Source of the DNA: an uncultured Candidatus Altimarinota bacterium
Lineage (GTDB): Bacteria > Patescibacteriota > Gracilibacteria > BD1-5 > UBA2023
DNA: 33,094 nt
Direction of reading: 5' to 3'
NCBI GenBank assembly: GCA_936941205.1
Contig: CAKZJF010000052.1
Location: 1-33,094 of the forward strand
The stretch's first letter is position 1, and every line of letters begins with the position of its first letter. Below the pieces are notes generated by a model. That model was given only the letters and a program-made list of their open reading frames with translations. It ran no database searches and was not told the origin of the DNA. Position numbers and translations under genes: made by a program. Below, in pieces: positions 6,511 to 13,526 of this stretch.

Positions 6511-7689
6511 ATGGCAGATAGTGTTACGGTTACTACCACCCGTTCATGGGGACAACGACTCAAGTCAGCCCTTGCTGGTCTTATCCTCGGTCCTATCTTT
6601 ATAGCTGGCTCTCTCTGGGGGCTCTCATACAACGAGTCACGTTCAGCTGATGTGATCACGAGCGTTGCAGAAGCTCGTAAGGTGGTTGTAGAATCTCCGA
6701 GCACAGTAGTCACTCCAGGGTATGATGGAAAGTTCGTTCATATGATCGGTCCTATTACCGGTGGACCACTCGTGGATGCTCTTTTTTCTGTAGCGGTGAC
6801 ATGAGCGGTGCTTTATCGAAATGTAGAAATGTATCAGTGGAAAGAGTCATCCACTTCATCAACTCATGAAAATATGGGTGGAAGTGAGACAACAACCACT
6901 ACCTATTCATATAAGAAAGTATGGTCTACGGATATGATAGATTCTTCATCTTTTCATGAAAAAGTATGACATGTGAATCCATCTTCTTGGAGATATGCCA
7001 GTGAAACCAAGAAAGCTCCACTTGTAAAAGTTGGGGCCTATGAACTCCAGTCAACGTTGGTAGATTATCTTCCAGTAGAGGCTCCCGTATCACTCGATGC
7101 GAAAAAACTTTTACTCACTTCAGGAGCTATCCTCCAATGAAATGAAATCTATATTGGGAATAATCCAGCTTCTCCAGAAATCGGAGATATGCGCATCGGA
7201 TTTACTCATATTCCAGATGAGACTCTTATCAGTCTATTGTCCGAACAAAAATGAAATACCATCATTCCTCCAGTTAATCAGAAATTTGCTCACACTACTC
7301 GTCTTGAGATCGGTGAACGTACAGCAGAAGCTATGTTTGAGTCGATTCTTACAGAAAATGATTGGATGACATGGGTATTTCGAGGACTTGGTCTTCTCGT
7401 ACTTTTCATAGGGTGGAGTATGTTCTTCTCTCTCCTTCCGATACTTGGAAAGTTTATTCCACTTCTTGGAACGATTATCGGGTTTGGAACCGGACTTATC
7501 GCATTCATCCTCACACTTTTTCTGGGTGGAGGAACGATTATTATTGCATGGTTTGTCGTTCGTCCACTGTATTCTATTATCGGAATAGGAGTTATCATAG
7601 TACTTGTTCTCGGTGCTTGGAAAATCTTTAAAAAAGAGCCTACTTCCCTCTCTGCTTCGACGGATACAAATCTTTCATCAGGCATCTAA
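6511..7689 (+). CDS. TMEM43 (LUMA)-like multi-pass membrane protein
   Basis: The predicted protein has 392 residues. One membrane segment lies at about 19-40. A large extracytoplasmic domain follows, with motifs of the TMEM43/DUF1625 family: SVAEARKVVVES, a GKFVHMIGPITGGP-like stretch, LYRNVEMYQWKES, YSYKKVWSTDMIDSSSF and VGHVNPSSW. Three or more hydrophobic segments lie at about 284-380 (LGLLVLFIGWSMFFSLLPIL and GTGLIAFILTLFLGGGTIII). TGA encodes Gly at several places, so the gene is written in the host code. It converges on the E1/E2 block and is separated from it by two back-to-back terminators, so it is a separate transcription unit. The bacterial members of this family have no settled function. 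Confidence 0.85.
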
Positions 7690-7733: not shown

Positions 7734-7767
7734 AAAAAAAATCCTCCAAGACCGAAGTCTGGAGGAT
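7734..7767 (-). terminator. Rho-independent terminator of the E1/E2 block
   Basis: A hairpin of about 11 bp with one bulged base (arms ATCCTCCAAGAC and GTCTGGAGGAT, loop CGAA) is followed on the minus strand by seven T. It lies 16 nt beyond the TAA of the E1-like gene. It marks the end of the leftward operon and faces the terminator of the converging gene. Confidence 0.8.
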
Positions 7768-7783
7768 AGGGCGAGATCGACGT

Positions 7784-8629
7784 TTACGCATGGTTGCAGA
7801 ACATGCAACCAACGTGTTGTGGAAGATCAAACTGATGGGATGAAAGGGTGCTTTCCAGGGCTTTGATACCCGAGAGAGACCAGATGATCCAGTTTTTGCC
7901 CATTGGGGCGAGCGAATGCTCTTGGCCTTCGAGGAGGATGTCGAGCGTTTTCCGAGCAGCCATAGCTGCCAGAAAGCTCTGATCGATCCCGAGACCAGGC
8001 ATGGAACGAACATCTCTTTTGGATGAACAGTCTGCTTTGTTTTCTGCATCAACGTACTCGCGCACGTAGTCGTGGCGATCTTGATGAAGTGCCAGACAAC
8101 TGTAACACACGCCGCCAGGGATGTAAGTGAAGAGTTCTCCACCGGCACCTTTCTGGAACATGGCCACGTAGATGGCTGGGGTTTTGGTTTCGATACAGAC
8201 TTCGTTCGCAAGAAAGCGTGACGAGTCCGTATCAGTTGCGATAACAACTGCATCCGACTGGGAAATAATCGATTCAAACTTTGCCCGGTTATCGAGAATA
8301 TTCCACTTATAGGCTTTGATGCCATTTCGGCAGGCCGGACTGTACTCAACCAGAAGGTCGCGAACGGCTTTGGCTTTGTTTTTTCCGATATGCTTGGCAC
8401 CACACGGATGCCGAACAAGATTGCCAGCATCGAGCGTATCAAAGTCGATTAAGTTGATATTCTTGATACCAGAACGGAGAAAATGCAATGCAATCTCTCC
8501 GCCCATGCCACAACCGACAATGGTTACCGTCTTATCGAGGTAGCCGTAGAGGGCGTTGACACGGGGGTTATCAGTCGGGTTATAGACATCATCGGGAATC
8601 GATGGAGGCGGGTTGACTCGTTGAGCCAT
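7784..8629 (-). CDS. E1-like (ThiF/MoeB-fold) adenylyltransferase
   Basis: The predicted protein has 281 residues. It has the Rossmann-type nucleotide-binding motif VGCGMGGE at 38-45, the acidic LIDFDTLDAGNLVRH segment at 60-74 (metal/ATP site, with the arginine that follows), GKNKAKAV at 82-89, and the DTDSSRF segment at 132-138. Two CxxC pairs at 175-178 and 275-278 form a ThiF/MoeB-type zinc site. A cysteine at 201 (ADCSSKRDV), just before SMPGLGID, is a candidate for the thioester-forming residue. Such enzymes activate the C-terminal glycine of ubiquitin-like proteins or sulfur carriers. The start has a strong GAGGAGA ribosome-binding site. About two dozen glycines are present and none is TGA, and the gene is visibly more GC-rich than its surroundings. 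Adjacent E2-like genes favour a conjugation role over thiamin or molybdopterin synthesis. Confidence 0.88.
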   Translation of the reverse strand: MAQRVNPPPSIPDDVYNPTDNPRVNALYGYLDKTVTIVGCGMGGEIALHFLRSGIKNINLIDFDTLDAGNLVRHPCGAKHIGKNKAKAVRDLLVEYSPACRNGIKAYKWNILDNRAKFESIISQSDAVVIATDTDSSRFLANEVCIETKTPAIYVAMFQKGAGGELFTYIPGGVCYSCLALHQDRHDYVREYVDAENKADCSSKRDVRSMPGLGIDQSFLAAMAARKTLDILLEGQEHSLAPMGKNWIIWSLSGIKALESTLSSHQFDLPQHVGCMFCNHA

Positions 8630-8671
8630 AATACTTTCTCCTCATACAATGAAATAAATCCTTCATATGGT

Positions 8672-8703
8672 ATGAGCCGGAATTCGGTTGAACTCCGGCT
8701 CAT
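8672..8703 (-). other. Intercistronic hairpin between the 71-residue gene and the E1-like gene
   Basis: A perfect 10-bp inverted repeat (ATGAGCCGGA / TCCGGCTCAT) can be extended inward by four pairs, leaving an AACC loop on the minus-strand transcript. There is no T-run after it, so it is not a clear terminator. It could act as an attenuator or mRNA-stability element, setting the E1 level below that of the upstream genes. Confidence 0.5.
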
Positions 8704-8708
8704 TTGCT

Positions 8709-8924
8709 TCATGCCGAACGCTCTTCAGTGCTCACCAGAGATGCGATGTTTTGGGCATCTGGAGGCAGGGGTGAATTGACCGGAACAATAGTTCCTGTGC
8801 CGGCAATCTTCACTTCCGTCCCTTTCAGGGCGGTTTGCGTTTTTTCAAGGACACCAGCATCAAGCGGTTTACGCTTTCCGGAGGTGCCATAGTGCTTGTC
8901 GATGTCGTCAAGTGTGAGTCCCAT
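8709..8924 (-). CDS. Small 71-residue protein of the E1/E2 block, ending in TGA
   Basis: The protein starts MGLTLDDIDKHYGTSGKRK and ends SLVSTEERSA. The start has a textbook AAGGAG site. The middle (TEVKIAGTGTIVPV) looks like beta strands; no transmembrane segment or known domain is recognised. The only stop that ends it at a gene-like length is TGA at 8709-8711. With UGA = Gly it would continue through GSKGAG... to a TAA at 8580-8582, gaining 43 residues and overlapping the E1 start by 50 nt. The extended part looks like read-through of an intergenic region, not protein. The gene therefore looks standard-code. Its place between E2 and E1 makes it a candidate modifier, substrate or regulator. 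It has no C-terminal Gly-Gly in the standard reading, so I do not call it ubiquitin-like. Confidence 0.6.
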   Translation of the reverse strand: MGLTLDDIDKHYGTSGKRKPLDAGVLEKTQTALKGTEVKIAGTGTIVPVNSPLPPDAQNIASLVSTEERSA

Positions 8925-8959
8925 GATGTGCTCCTTCTTAAAAATGCACGGTTAAAAAA

Positions 8960-9427
8960 TTAATGCTCTGGCAGAGGCCAAGATTTTGTGGCTCGCCAGA
9001 TTTCCAGGGCATGAAACCACTTCGCTGCGAAATGAACCATCGTGACGGATGAGAGGTTGGGATTCCAACCTTGCCCAATCTTGTCATCTGGTTGAATAAC
9101 ACAGAGATGAAGTTCCCCATCCTTGTAAGTGCCACGAGTATGTTTCGTTCCGCTGTCGTCCCAGAGTTTGATGATATCCGGATCGAGTGCCACCGGAATC
9201 GGTGGTACCATCGGATAATCCTCTGGAAAATAAACGCGCATGCGGTACGCATTTTTCTGGGCAGTTACGATGAATCCCTCCATGTAGAGAGTATCTCCAT
9301 CGCAGATGTTGAATTCAAAATGAGGATACGTTGCTGCCATCTTCTCCATTTCATACCGGAGACGACGAATGCCGCGTTCCTCCCCATACTTCTTTACCCA
9401 ATTGGGTGGTACAAATTTTTTTGCCAT
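8960..9427 (-). CDS. E2-like (UBC-fold) protein with candidate catalytic cysteine
   Basis: The predicted protein has 155 residues, about the size of a ubiquitin-conjugating enzyme. It shows the E2 layout: an N-terminal helix (GIRRLRYEMEKMAATYP), a beta meander with DGDTLYMEGFI and AYRMRVYFPEDYPMVPP (residues 60-76, the FPxxYPxxPP signature of E2), a linker, then GELHLCV with Cys109 at the position of the active-site cysteine, followed by GQGWNPNLSSVT and a C-terminal helix (MVHFAAKWFHALEIW). It has a strong AGGAGA ribosome-binding site, and none of its glycines is TGA. It belongs with the prokaryotic E2-like families found beside ThiF/E1 genes. It would receive the activated modifier from the E1-like protein. 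That last point is inference. Confidence 0.85.
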   Translation of the reverse strand: MAKKFVPPNWVKKYGEERGIRRLRYEMEKMAATYPHFEFNICDGDTLYMEGFIVTAQKNAYRMRVYFPEDYPMVPPIPVALDPDIIKLWDDSGTKHTRGTYKDGELHLCVIQPDDKIGQGWNPNLSSVTMVHFAAKWFHALEIWRATKSWPLPEH

Positions 9428-9444
9428 GATACTTTCTCCTAGGT

Positions 9445-9927
9445 TTATGGCGAATATACATGAAACTGTTCCCCATCAAAGTGGACACAGGCTTGATGAG
9501 TAAACTGCCCGGTTTGGATCCAACCTTCGTAGGCTGCGAGCCACCGTGCAGTCAGGTAAAACATGCTTATGCCCGTTATTTCGGATTGCTCCTCAACCGA
9601 GTAAAGATATGGAGTGATTTGTACCCCATTCATGTTTATACCTTGGGTATAGGGAATTCCCCTTTGTACAAAGGTAACGAAAACGGATTGCTCCTTGATG
9701 ATGGTAAAGGGTGGTGAATTCGGATAATTCTCCGGAAAACAGATGCGAAGCAGATACGAATTCCCTGAAGCAAGTTCAAGTGATCCTTCTGCAAACATCA
9801 TCCCAGTATCTTCCAGAACACGATAGCTAAAGGCAGGAAAATTTGCTATTGCAGCAACCTCCTGTCTTAAGCGATCAATGCTTTGACTATCCTCGTCCTG
9901 TACCCAGTTTGGCATGGTACGAGTCAT
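9445..9927 (-). CDS. Second E2-like protein, lacking the active-site cysteine
   Basis: The predicted protein has 160 residues and aligns by eye along its length with its neighbour. Shared points are PNWV, RLRQEVAAIANFPAF, a G-M-MFAEGSLELASGNSYLLR strand pair, and FPENYPNSPP at 64-73. The C-terminal helix MFYLTARWLAAYEGW matches MVHFAAKWFHALEIW. Where the neighbour has HLCV, this protein reads TPYLYS, so no cysteine is present. It is therefore probably a non-catalytic E2 variant, analogous in logic to eukaryotic UEV proteins, which pair with an active E2. It has a strong GGAGG ribosome-binding site and a 17-nt gap to the active E2-like gene. No TGA codon is used. It looks like a tandem duplication followed by divergence. 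Confidence 0.8.
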   Translation of the reverse strand: MTRTMPNWVQDEDSQSIDRLRQEVAAIANFPAFSYRVLEDTGMMFAEGSLELASGNSYLLRICFPENYPNSPPFTIIKEQSVFVTFVQRGIPYTQGINMNGVQITPYLYSVEEQSEITGISMFYLTARWLAAYEGWIQTGQFTHQACVHFDGEQFHVYSP

Positions 9928-9945
9928 AATTTCCTCCAGTCTTAG

Positions 9946-10647
9946 TTAAACGATATCCTCAGGAATGACCCCATTATCACGGGGATTATTTACACCAGGT
10001 CGACCAATAGCTGGACGTGTATGGCGTTGATTTGTGGGTGTACTTGCTTGCCTCGGAGGAGGGGTTGCTTGTACATTCTCCCGATTCTGAGCCATGAAAG
10101 GCTGATTTCGCCTCTCAAACTCAGTAGGTGTTCCTGTATGGATAACAGTAGTACCTGAACCTCGTGAAGAATTACTACTTTTATCACCGATAATACCAGC
10201 GATAATAGCAATAATAAGGATACCACCGACGATTTTCCAGAGAGAAAAACCGCTCTTCTCTTCAGGAGGTTTATTTCCTGTAGAAGTCGATGATTCGCTT
10301 GCTTGTTGACGTGCCTGATCGGCCGCAATAGCTGCTGCTTCACTTTTCCTTTGAGTATTTTCGATTTCAGAACGCGCCATCTTCAGTTTTTCGATGTGTG
10401 TATTCAGGGCACGGACTCGCTCTTGAATGTTCTTGAGCTCATCCATGTCTTGTTCCGGGTTATTGGATGATTCGATTTTCTCCACTAGATTGTTCGCCAA
10501 TGCTTTGAGACGAACCTTGTCTTGTTCGATGCTTGTGATCTCTCCTGTGATGCTTTCAATAGTTGCTGCTGATACCTCATATGGAAAGAGGAACCAGACA
10601 GCAAACATGATAGCGAAGAGAGAATGGATTATCGTGTTTTGCCGCAT
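9946..10647 (-). CDS. Membrane-anchored coiled-coil protein of the E1/E2 block
   Basis: The predicted protein has 233 residues from the ATG at 10647, which has an AAGGAG site; a TTG 15 nt upstream would include that site in the coding part, so it is rejected. Residues 1-28 look like a cleavable signal peptide (cleavage near EVSA-A). A charged coiled coil follows at about 35-120 (heptads in EITSIEQDKVRLKALANNLV and IQERVRALNTHIEKLKMAR). A second membrane segment lies at about 136-154 (LWKIVGGILIIAIIAGIIG), and then a Ser/Pro/Asn/Arg-rich, probably disordered tail to the end. No TGA codon is used for Gly. It is not recognised as a known family. Its place in the operon suggests an envelope anchor or target of the conjugation system. 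Confidence 0.7.
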   Translation of the reverse strand: MRQNTIIHSLFAIMFAVWFLFPYEVSAATIESITGEITSIEQDKVRLKALANNLVEKIESSNNPEQDMDELKNIQERVRALNTHIEKLKMARSEIENTQRKSEAAAIAADQARQQASESSTSTGNKPPEEKSGFSLWKIVGGILIIAIIAGIIGDKSSNSSRGSGTTVIHTGTPTEFERRNQPFMAQNRENVQATPPPRQASTPTNQRHTRPAIGRPGVNNPRDNGVIPEDIV

Positions 10648-10672
10648 GATTTTCTCCTTCAAGATGCATGGG

Positions 10673-11089
10673 TTACATGGATTGGATGGATTGATTGAGT
10701 TCGAGAGCCTTCTTTTTCAAGAGTTTTCTCTTCTCTTCCTGATCGGTGAAGCTAAGGTTTTTATTTTCATGTTTACACATGCCACGCTTCCATGCCTCAT
10801 TAGCATTTTCACGACGTTCACATACACCAGTCAGGTTGCCTTTTGACCACTTTCCTCGGTAACTGATACCACTGGGAAATGTATAGGTACCTTCACCATC
10901 ACGTTGGCTATCCGAAAATGAGCCACTATAAATATGTTTATCACCATACTCCTTTGTTCCATATCCATTGACGCAGTTTCCACTCTTACATGAGCGGTCT
11001 TTTATCGGTTCGGAATATTTCTGCTCTGGAGTACTCGAACAACCAATGATGGACACAAGTATCAGGCCGATAACGAGAATTTGTTTCAT
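10673..11089 (-). CDS. Lipoprotein with MORN-like repeats
   Basis: The predicted protein has 138 residues. It starts MKQILVIGLILVSIIGC, a lipoprotein signal with Cys17 as the lipidated residue. The middle (about 40-88) holds two to three MORN-type units: NGYGTKEYGDKHIYSGSF, DGEGTYTFPSGISYRGKW and a partial KGNLTG. The C-terminal part is lysine-rich and helical. MORN repeats often bind lipids or act as protein-interaction surfaces. It has a TAGGAG ribosome-binding site, and the gaps to its neighbours are 9 and 25 nt, so it belongs to the same transcript as the E2-like genes. About fourteen glycines, none TGA. The family call is good; the role is unknown. Confidence 0.78.
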   Translation of the reverse strand: MKQILVIGLILVSIIGCSSTPEQKYSEPIKDRSCKSGNCVNGYGTKEYGDKHIYSGSFSDSQRDGEGTYTFPSGISYRGKWSKGNLTGVCERRENANEAWKRGMCKHENKNLSFTDQEEKRKLLKKKALELNQSIQSM

Positions 11090-11098
11090 GATGAACTC

Positions 11099-11620
11099 CT
11101 AAAGATGGTTTTGCCGTAGTTTCGAAAAAATGACAGGAAGATATTCTGCGGTGAGTGCTATCTGGTTATCCGGATACATCACTCGCAGGAGCTTCTCGTA
11201 GGTGAGTTCAATGGTTTCACCCGTAGCTATGAAAAGAAATATTCTTGCTTTTCCTTCGGTGGGATGAACATAGAACGAAAGTGTCCTAATATCTTGCCTC
11301 CAGAAATCACTTGAAATATTGAGATTATACCAGTCTTCATTTTGAAAGCGAACAGCTTTCTCGATGCTTTGAGGCATGTCTTTCTTCTCGAGAGCCATCT
11401 TGCGAACACGTTCCAAGAAACGGTAGTGCTTTTGGCGCGGAGTGTTCCAAGGGAGGGTGACGATGAGAATGATTCCACGGATTGCAGTTTTTGCTATCCA
11501 TGAAAAAATAAGCAGCAAAGAAATCAAGAGAGCATTTCTCGTAGCGTGTTTGCCACGCAGAAAGATGCTTGCAAAGATTTCAGAGGCTGCACTGGCTTTG
11601 AAATATTTCATGAAGCCCAT
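11099..11620 (-). CDS. Hypothetical membrane protein, first gene of the no-TGA block
   Basis: The predicted protein has 173 residues. An N-terminal amphipathic stretch is followed by one or two membrane segments at about 28-56 (NALLISLLLIFSWIAKTAIRGIILIVTLPW). After it comes a soluble, mixed domain of about 115 residues. Motifs such as FWRQDIRTLSFYVHPTEGKARIFLFI and LTYEKLLRVMYPDNQIALTAEYL do not match a family I know. The ATG at 11620 has an AAAGGAA site 9 nt upstream, and the stop is TAG. It starts the leftward block; its promoter must lie in the 124-nt gap after the JAMM gene, or it is carried on the JAMM transcript. Confidence 0.7.
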   Translation of the reverse strand: MGFMKYFKASAASEIFASIFLRGKHATRNALLISLLLIFSWIAKTAIRGIILIVTLPWNTPRQKHYRFLERVRKMALEKKDMPQSIEKAVRFQNEDWYNLNISSDFWRQDIRTLSFYVHPTEGKARIFLFIATGETIELTYEKLLRVMYPDNQIALTAEYLPVIFSKLRQNHL

Positions 11621-11744: not shown

Positions 11745-13355
11745 CTATATTATACGTACATTGAGTGGAATGAGGTCCTCGATTCTATAGTTTTTATTTT
11801 CTGTATTGCGGTGTATCTTCCAGAAATACATAATATAATCACGACTTCATTTGTATTCTGAAGATCGGAATATAATCGAATTTGAAGGCTTATTTCTTTC
11901 ATTGATTGTTGAATTTCTTGGAAGTTCATTGACGATTCACCAGGTGAGAACTTGAAGGTTTGGCTGACGCTCAAATCTTCCTCGTCACATGGACATGTGA
12001 TTGATGTCTCATCCACTTGGATGATAGAGTCCTCCAGGATGTTTGTGCCAATTATAATAATTGATGGCACCATCCATAATGATGGTTTTTTTCACTCCAG
12101 ATTGTAAATAGGTATTTACTTGTTTTTTTAACAGAATATTTGCTTCCTGCGTTCAGAATGTCTGAAAGAGTGAATGTGTCTTATTTCGTGCAAAGTAGTC
12201 AGATCATTTTTTTCCAACGACCGCAAATTCAGCTCCACTTAATTCCATTTCATCAAGCGTTGGATTTGCTAGATGTTCTAATTGCAAGATTCCATTTTTT
12301 ATTCCATAGCAACTCTGAAACCAGTATCCGCCAGTTTCAGTTCCATGACTGAGAACATACGGATCTTCCAACTGTCGGTATATAGATGTGAGGTTATTCT
12401 GGACAATCTCTACCGTATGAAGTGTGAGGAGTTCCTTATTTTTTATAACATCACGTTCTATGAGTGCTTGATGATACATTGCTTCAAACACTATTCAGAT
12501 ATCCTCCAAAGGAAGTACTCTATGGAGAGTAGTATATTTTTCTTTTATACCATCGATCCAAGTAAAACGAACGGAAATATTTCCATGCACATCTTCCTCA
12601 AACAGAGTCATAAATAACCCATGGTATGTTTGTTTTGTAAAAACAATACATTTCTCTCCATTTTCTTCAATATGGGAATCTTTTAGGTCGATAATAAAAC
12701 CAAATTCCTCAATCACTATATCTTTTAGATGATGGAATCGTTCTGCATTTTTGGAAAGTGTTTCTGGAGATTTTTCTTCCTCATTTCATTCCGTTCATAC
12801 CATGTCTCCCTCATCCTTTGCATGAAGAATAACCTCTTTATTGTTTCTTGCTAACTCATCAGCTCTTTCCTTTTCTCGCATGATACGATACGCATTATCT
12901 TTTCGTCTTTTTAATATCCATCCAAGACTCCCCAAAACTCCAACTGCCACCCCACTGGCTCAGAGGATACTGAGAATTCCATAGGGATCATGGAAGGTTT
13001 CTATTTTTTTTGATTGATGGGATGTTTGAGGAGAATTTCTCGGAATGAATGGGGTCTTTTGTCCTTCACTTCAATTGATTTTATTTCTTTTTTCACGAAC
13101 TGTTTCCGAATGTTCGGTGGTAGTATCATTTGATGGATGTATCACTTGGTTTCATGTTGATACTTCTGGAGAATTTGTTTCTGAAAGAACATAGGCCCTT
13201 TCGGTTACTATTTGAATTTGTGCTTCTGTAGATTTTTGATTACCCGGATTCACTACCGTTTGTTCATGAGTAATAATTCAGAGTTCTTTCATGGGTATAA
13301 TAATTCAGTTTTCGAGTAAAATGGATTTCTCAGGGGTAAAAGTATATGTATGCAT
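11745..13355 (-). CDS. Membrane-anchored protein with a C-terminal JAMM (JAB/MPN+) signature
   Basis: The predicted protein has 536 residues and is visible only if TGA = Gly; at least ten glycines are TGA. Residues 1-125 are polar and probably disordered or surface-exposed. A membrane segment lies at about 126-148 (GILSILGASGVAVGVLGSLGW). A charged helix and a mixed domain follow to about 365. The C-terminal part contains MELSGAEF (Glu371 or Glu376 as the upstream acid), then NWHKHPGGLYHPSGGDI, an exact HxH-x7-S-x2-D match with His437, His439, Ser447 and Asp450. This is the zinc site of JAMM isopeptidases, which remove ubiquitin-like proteins. The sequence after about residue 455 is less convincing as a fold. 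The gene stops at a TAG and is followed in the same direction by the E1/E2 block. Start choice is moderate: the ribosome-binding site is weak. Confidence 0.72.
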
Positions 13356-13526
13356 CCTTTGAATCTTGAGAGTGCAACAAAAACATCTATACTTTATTTG
13401 ATGAGAAAAGATCAACTTGTATTTTTGTATTATTTTCTAGATTCTAATAAAAGAATTTAATTTGTCAATCAGTTATATTTACTTTTTCCGATATATACGC
13501 ATGATAATAATAGTATATAAATTGGT

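Follow-up and report, generated by a model that had tools for sequence, protein, structure and literature searches.

Gene content of the locus

We analysed a window of 33,094 nucleotides (contig CAKZJF010000052.1, positions 1 to 33,094) from a 1.3 Mb genome of Patescibacteria, labelled G000 among the genomes compared here. An initial annotation of this window had described a block of seven genes (7784-11620) as a candidate ubiquitin-like conjugation system with an envelope part. All seven open reading frames (ORFs) were confirmed on the minus strand (Table 1). The locus is longer than the seven genes described, however, and extends to position 13415 with a gene, here called x, that encodes a JAB protein. 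The block genes hold the grammar of the standard genetic code inside genomes that read TGA as glycine and lack release factor 2 (RF2), whereas in the neighbouring JAB gene of this locus TGA stands for glycine.

Table 1. Positions of the features discussed. Positions without a label refer to the window; L016 and L017 in the text are the loci of genomes G389 and G390.
Feature	Position	Strand	Remarks
E1/ThiF-like adenylating enzyme, 281 amino acids (aa)	7784-8629	-	stop TAA; no in-frame TGA
p71, small conserved E1 partner	8709-8924	-	stop is TGA 8709-8711
E2 (ubiquitin-conjugating, UBC, fold), 155 aa	8960-9427	-	catalytic Cys109 (LCV)
E2b (160 aa), paralogue of E2 that lacks the catalytic Cys	9445-9927	-	
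cc, signal peptide, coiled coil, one transmembrane helix, basic/Pro-rich tail	9946-10647	-	
Lipoprotein with MORN repeat	10673-11089	-	
mem, small membrane protein	11099-11620	-	found in 5 loci
x, transmembrane protein, C-terminal JAMM/JAB domain	11745-13415	-	5' of block, same strand
Intrinsic terminator, UUCG tetraloop and U run	7734-7767	-	after E1
TMEM43-family membrane protein (PF07787, 1e-65)	6511-7689		host code; convergent with block
G390 methyl-accepting chemotaxis protein (MCP) and periplasmic protein	L062:11444-13482		Shine-Dalgarno (SD) sites; no TGA
G390 SLT lytic transglycosylase, signal peptide	L059:7114-7794		TGA stop, SD; flanked by TGA-rich host genes
G390 signal-peptide protein, MORN-like repeats	L049:7478-8077		19 Gly, 0 TGA; host-like codon usage
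Mesorhizobium sp. AR10 plasmid locus	L002:4778-6729		57 aa protein, E2, Cys-less E2-like, E1, JAB-like, metallo-beta-lactamase (MBL)

The assignment of the first enzyme as E1/ThiF-like was borne out by matches to Pfam ThiF (PF00899, 6e-29) and to the E1-E2 profile of PADLOC (2e-24). It has the Rossmann adenylation domain of the E1/ThiF superfamily with a GxGxxG motif (G39 and G41 invariant), and its nearest solved relatives by profile were MoeB, UBA5, ThiF, MccB and Cap2. The zinc site and thioester Cys proposed earlier also agree with the orthologues: Cys175, Cys178 and Cys275 are invariant and fit a zinc site (with Cys278 also in the candidate pair), and the invariant Cys201, in a K-x-x-C-x-x-x-R-D stretch, is a candidate thioester Cys.

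The E2-like protein matched the PADLOC E2 profile (4e-12). Its Cys109 was conserved in 8/8 orthologues, as were His96 and Gly99 upstream of it. The Cys-less paralogue E2b is 28% identical to the E2 (E = 4e-14), with no Cys at the corresponding site. The AlphaFold (AF2) model of E2b had a predicted local distance difference test score (pLDDT) of 83, and its top folds in the PDB were all E2, ubiquitin E2 variant (UEV) or UFC1 (E ~1e-3, TM-score ~0.45). The UBC fold thus held for both proteins for which it had been proposed, by profile for 8960-9427 and by the model for 9445-9927. E2b was found in the window and in L016; among the relatives, only G389 has it.

Homologues of x occur in six loci. 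The C-termini of all six x proteins carry HxH-x7-S-x2-D after ETGG or EVLG (in the window ETGG...NWHKHPGGLYHPSGGD), the JAMM signature of JAB isopeptidases; the Pfam signal was weak (Prok-JAB, 0.06, in one orthologue). With this signature in x, the module is composed of E1, E2, in some loci E2b, JAB, p71 and three envelope proteins. Of the latter, the MORN lipoprotein was corroborated by a MORN match (2e-6). The coiled-coil gene (cc) is present as annotated, but its start is likelier at ATG 10647, which has an SD site, than at 10662.

Relatives of p71 are 71-84 aa long. In L021 and L022, p71 is fused to the E1 as its N-terminus, and the C-terminal SF is kept in most of the separate copies. The reading of p71 as a ubiquitin-like (Ubl) protein was not supported: its AF2 model had low confidence (pLDDT 58) and was not beta-grasp. 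Of the ubiquitin-like conjugation system first described, the E1, the E2, the inactive E2 and the envelope proteins therefore stand, and a JAB is added, but the term "ubiquitin-like" gained no support for any modifier, since no beta-grasp domain was found in any gene of the locus by sequence, nor in the p71 model. Bil systems belong to the same general class as the bacterial E1-E2-JAB-Ubl neighbourhoods. The window genes contained no Ubl domain in Pfam or NCBIfam; judged by these profiles and the p71 model, the locus lacks the beta-grasp Ubl with a processable C-terminal Gly that marks Bil and other Ubl-based systems.

Two genetic codes in one locus

The host genes dnaA, dnaB and gltX are open only when TGA is read as Gly (translation table 25). 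The initial annotation was right about the block genes, but missed that the block does not follow genetic code 25, the code of the contig. No prfB gene (RF2) was found over the cut-off in seven genomes, with at most an RF1-like match, in agreement with the absence of RF2 reported before (PMC6851277). Codon rates of the hosts were calculated from sampled genome stretches. TGA made up 75% of the Gly codons in G390 (641 ORFs) and 35% in G000 (150 ORFs), and SD sites preceded 2% of the ORFs in G390 and 2-3% over both genomes.

In contrast, none of the Gly codons in the block genes was TGA, neither in the window (0/79) nor in the 42 genes of eight loci (0/507), and an SD-like site preceded 42/42 of these genes. 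For the five operon genes of G390 (54 Gly, 0 TGA) the probability of this result is ~5e-33. For the window it ranges from 1e-8 to 3e-15, depending on whether the rate is taken from the window's own genes or from sampled contigs.

Of the same 42 genes, 29 end in TAA or TAG and 13 in TGA, including all 5 genes of L021. The TGA stops coincide with TAA in orthologues (for example, E2 after ..PLPE, lipoprotein after ..LTE, mem after ..L). Readthrough of the TGA stops would lengthen the block proteins by 2 to 361 residues; for p71 of the window, reading the stop as Gly would add 43 aa.

Only x, and not the block, has the features of a code-25 gene, i.e. in-frame TGA for Gly and stops of TAA or TAG only. 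In the window, x contains 14 TGA codons for Gly and has no SD site. Across the loci, TGA accounts for 13-76% of the Gly codons of x, and in most genomes the orthologues have Gly at these TGA positions about as frequently as at GGN positions.

At the 3' end of 16S rRNA, we found GGAUGGACUAUCUC(C/U).. in place of GGAUCACCUCCUU (L064 (G000 C79), L081, L082, L084), which alters the anti-SD sequence. The change is largest in G000, the genome of the window (CUCUUU). As an explanation, a total loss of the anti-SD could hold for G000 at most, as CUCC(UU) persists in G389, G387 and G395.

The operon is not alone in its code. Outside the operon of G390, SD sites preceded 5/6 TGA-free ORFs that had 8 or more Gly codons, compared with 6/524 ORFs with TGA (p = 8e-9). 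Among the products of this TGA-free set are an MCP, a protein with DnaJ-like Cys repeats and a signal-peptide protein whose gene has the codon usage of the host; the lytic transglycosylase gene that ends in TGA (Table 1) is a further case. Hence, the operon belongs to a small class of standard-code genes, part of which is probably ordinary import. The L049 gene (Table 1) had no orthologues in the family. One G000 contig (C60) contains two TGA-free ORFs (L131:8026-9018 and 10852-11556), one of them with an SD site and a lipoprotein signal; they are either further standard-code genes or contamination.

Conservation and age of the locus

The locus was kept in 7 of the 27 family genomes, including the window's own. 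The relatives with the locus are mostly Candidatus Gracilibacteria and are metagenome-assembled genomes (MAGs) from separate studies. E1 orthologues in family members were 42-60% identical, and each E1 was accompanied by an E2 and a p71 homologue, plus most of cc, lipoprotein, mem and x where the contig reached far enough. The initial annotation had allowed that the gene order might be conserved nowhere; the block genes do recur as a set in other genomes, while their order varies. In L016, E2b stands first and mem last, and in L017 the x gene separates p71 from E1, all on one strand. In G000 as well as G389, x is located ~3 kb downstream of dnaA on the same strand. A chimeric assembly can be ruled out, since several independent MAGs share the arrangement, one of them on a contig of 165 kb. 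G387 carries the locus twice (L018, L019, L023, L027), with one copy apparently broken across two contigs, and it also has a second JAB gene resembling x (L027:14871-16940).

When 380 genomes from across the phylum were searched with the E2, only the window's own genome gave a match, and a first E1 scan of genome contigs gave no matches. The matches listed in an E1 profile scan of genome contigs comprised six family members and distant E1s from Chloroflexi and others. Among these listed matches, envelope genes were absent from the distant neighbourhoods examined, and no close relative from outside the Gracilibacteria occurred. Viral contigs searched with E1 and E2 contained no relative.

Over a range of 0.34 to 0.56, the GC content of the operon tracks that of its contig (r = 0.97); the pairwise identities of E1 and x are also correlated (r = 0.92, exact p = 0.006). 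Because the block follows the GC of each host and the divergences of E1 and JAB agree, it is, judged by these sequence comparisons, not one recent import. In G390, E1, E2 and cc resembled host genes in codon usage and third-position GC, falling inside the host distribution; pyrE and other likely imports fell outside. The block of the window has a GC content of 0.46 vs 0.37 in its host and may thus have reached that genome more recently.

Related systems and interpretation

The locus shares E1, E2 and JAB with Cap2/Cap3 of type II CBASS (cyclic-oligonucleotide-based antiphage signalling systems), which conjugate the C-terminus of a non-ubiquitin protein (PMC10097602), and the E1 profile matched Cap2 chains. 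Unlike in type II CBASS, E1 and E2 are separate in all loci, without the Cap2 fusion, and the locus adds an E2-like protein, p71, envelope proteins, a membrane-borne JAB and the use of two codes. No gene for a CD-NTase (cGAS/DncV-like nucleotidyltransferase) or CBASS effector was present in the window locus and none was recognised in the relatives; the locus does not qualify as type II CBASS. Neighbourhoods 6a-6e of Iyer et al. 2006 (PMC1779556) likewise combine E1, E2 and JAB, and 6e also has a Cys-less E2/RWD-like protein. The present locus differs from them in that no beta-grasp protein was found in it, and the descriptions of 6a-6e do not include a lipoprotein, a signal-peptide coiled-coil protein or a membrane protein like those seen here. 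A plasmid locus of Mesorhizobium sp. AR10 has a stand-alone E1 (28%, 7e-27), an E2, a Cys-less E2-like protein and a short protein, part of which resembles p71, but it lacks envelope proteins, uses the ordinary code throughout and has MBL and patatin genes. Its Cys-less E2-like protein is annotated as a Phd/YefM antitoxin, likely a misannotation. Overall, the biochemistry is a variant of the known E1-E2-JAB kind, whereas for the two-code locus we found no precedent: the open-access literature searched contained no report of mixed-code chromosomal loci.

The best candidate for the modifier is the C-terminal tail of cc, which would play the part that the CD-NTase tail has in type II CBASS. Given cleavage of the signal peptide and a single transmembrane helix, this tail would be cytosolic, and hence within reach of E1 and E2. 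It ends in a motif, G-x-[VI]-P-x-[DS]-[ILFY]-x-COOH, in 6/7 loci. CBASS tails require a C-terminal Gly or Ala (PMC10097602), and against the cc tail it must be said that the cc and p71 proteins end in neither, except for Ala in p71 of the window. Trimming of cc, with its invariant Gly seven residues from the end, is a speculation. An alternative candidate is p71, though it is fused to E1 in two loci.

We consider it fairly probable that the locus encodes a membrane-associated E1-E2-JAB conjugation module split between two genetic codes. In this module, the E1 would adenylate a C-terminus and pass it by thioester to Cys109 of the E2, which would join it to an amine; E2b may act as a non-catalytic UEV-type partner, p71 may be a cofactor of E1, and the JAB would reverse the bond. 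From the code split we infer that standard-code ribosomes would translate the conjugation half for at least part of the time, likeliest in a bacterial cell on which the Gracilibacterium depends, and that the deconjugase would be made in the Gracilibacterium only. Tagging genes in the ordinary code and a tag remover in the host code suggest that the tagging half would be meant for a different cell.

Repeated recent transfer of the block from a standard-code donor (prey or phage), with TGA for Gly still to accumulate, would account for the patchy distribution (7/27), for the GC difference in the window and for other foreign-looking, SD-bearing and TGA-free genes in G390 (pyrE, MCP). We regard it as unlikely, as the block has been inherited together with the TGA-rich JAB gene, which in G390 even lies inside it, GC tracks the host, and E1, E2 and cc of G390 have host-like codon usage although 75% of host Gly codons are TGA. 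The absence of a viral relative, and of a close relative outside the Gracilibacteria among the matches listed, points the same way. A defence operon that avoids TGA for an unrelated cause, e.g. scarce UGA-reading tRNA-Gly during expression, fits the mostly anti-phage function of known E1-E2-JAB modules. It leaves unexplained both the TGA stops at conserved gene ends and an adjoining JAB with up to 76% TGA for Gly, which makes it very improbable.

The locus might instead shuttle between Gracilibacteria and standard-code hosts and be selected for readability in both. Many predicted phages of Gracilibacteria lack in-frame TGA, and some are targeted by standard-code bacteria too (PMC10746230). These code-11-compatible phages resemble the present case in tying TGA-free genes to hosts that read TGA as Gly, and L016 and L022, with TAA stops only, are fully bilingual. 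The phages, however, are phage genomes, whereas this locus is conserved, chromosomal and mixes both codes. The TGA stops, as in all 5 genes of L021, are unreadable in a Gracilibacterium, a standard-code cell could not read x, neither phage nor transposon genes were recognised beside the window locus, and x keeps its place near dnaA in two genomes. We therefore think such a shuttling element somewhat unlikely. A sharper form of our preferred reading is a T-DNA-like locus, in which DNA reaches the parasitised cell, which makes the envelope proteins and conjugation enzymes while the JAB stays in the parasite. It draws on the same two-code evidence, on the three envelope products and on the dependence of Gracilibacteria on a host, as inferred elsewhere (PMC11452946). 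No VirB4-type ATPase of a type IV secretion system was found in 6 genomes examined, which counts against this form, and we hold it as tentative. The confidences in these readings overlap.

Several further observations weigh against a module split between two codes. All genomes with the locus are MAGs. Every gene of L016 and L022 ends in TAA and can be read in either code. Core genes of G386, G395, G387 and G396 are low in TGA, so the codon argument is weaker there and the evidence comes chiefly from the TGA stops. G389 and G387 retain part of their altered anti-SD, and some standard-code genes of G390 (pyrE, MCP) resemble ordinary recent imports.

Possibly, though this is doubtful, Gracilibacteria keep chromosomal standard-code genes on purpose for expression in the parasitised cell; here, these would build a membrane-anchored conjugation module in the envelope of that cell, and the parasite's own code would confine the deconjugase to the parasite. 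The locus adds a membrane-linked, apparently Ubl-free branch to the bacterial E1-E2-JAB conjugation systems. It also offers a simple screen, in which TGA-free, SD-bearing genes of code-25 genomes are candidates for genes meant for another cell. If the two-code reading is true, the co-inherited locus would show directly, in its sequence, that gene expression crosses from a recoded parasite to its standard-code partner.

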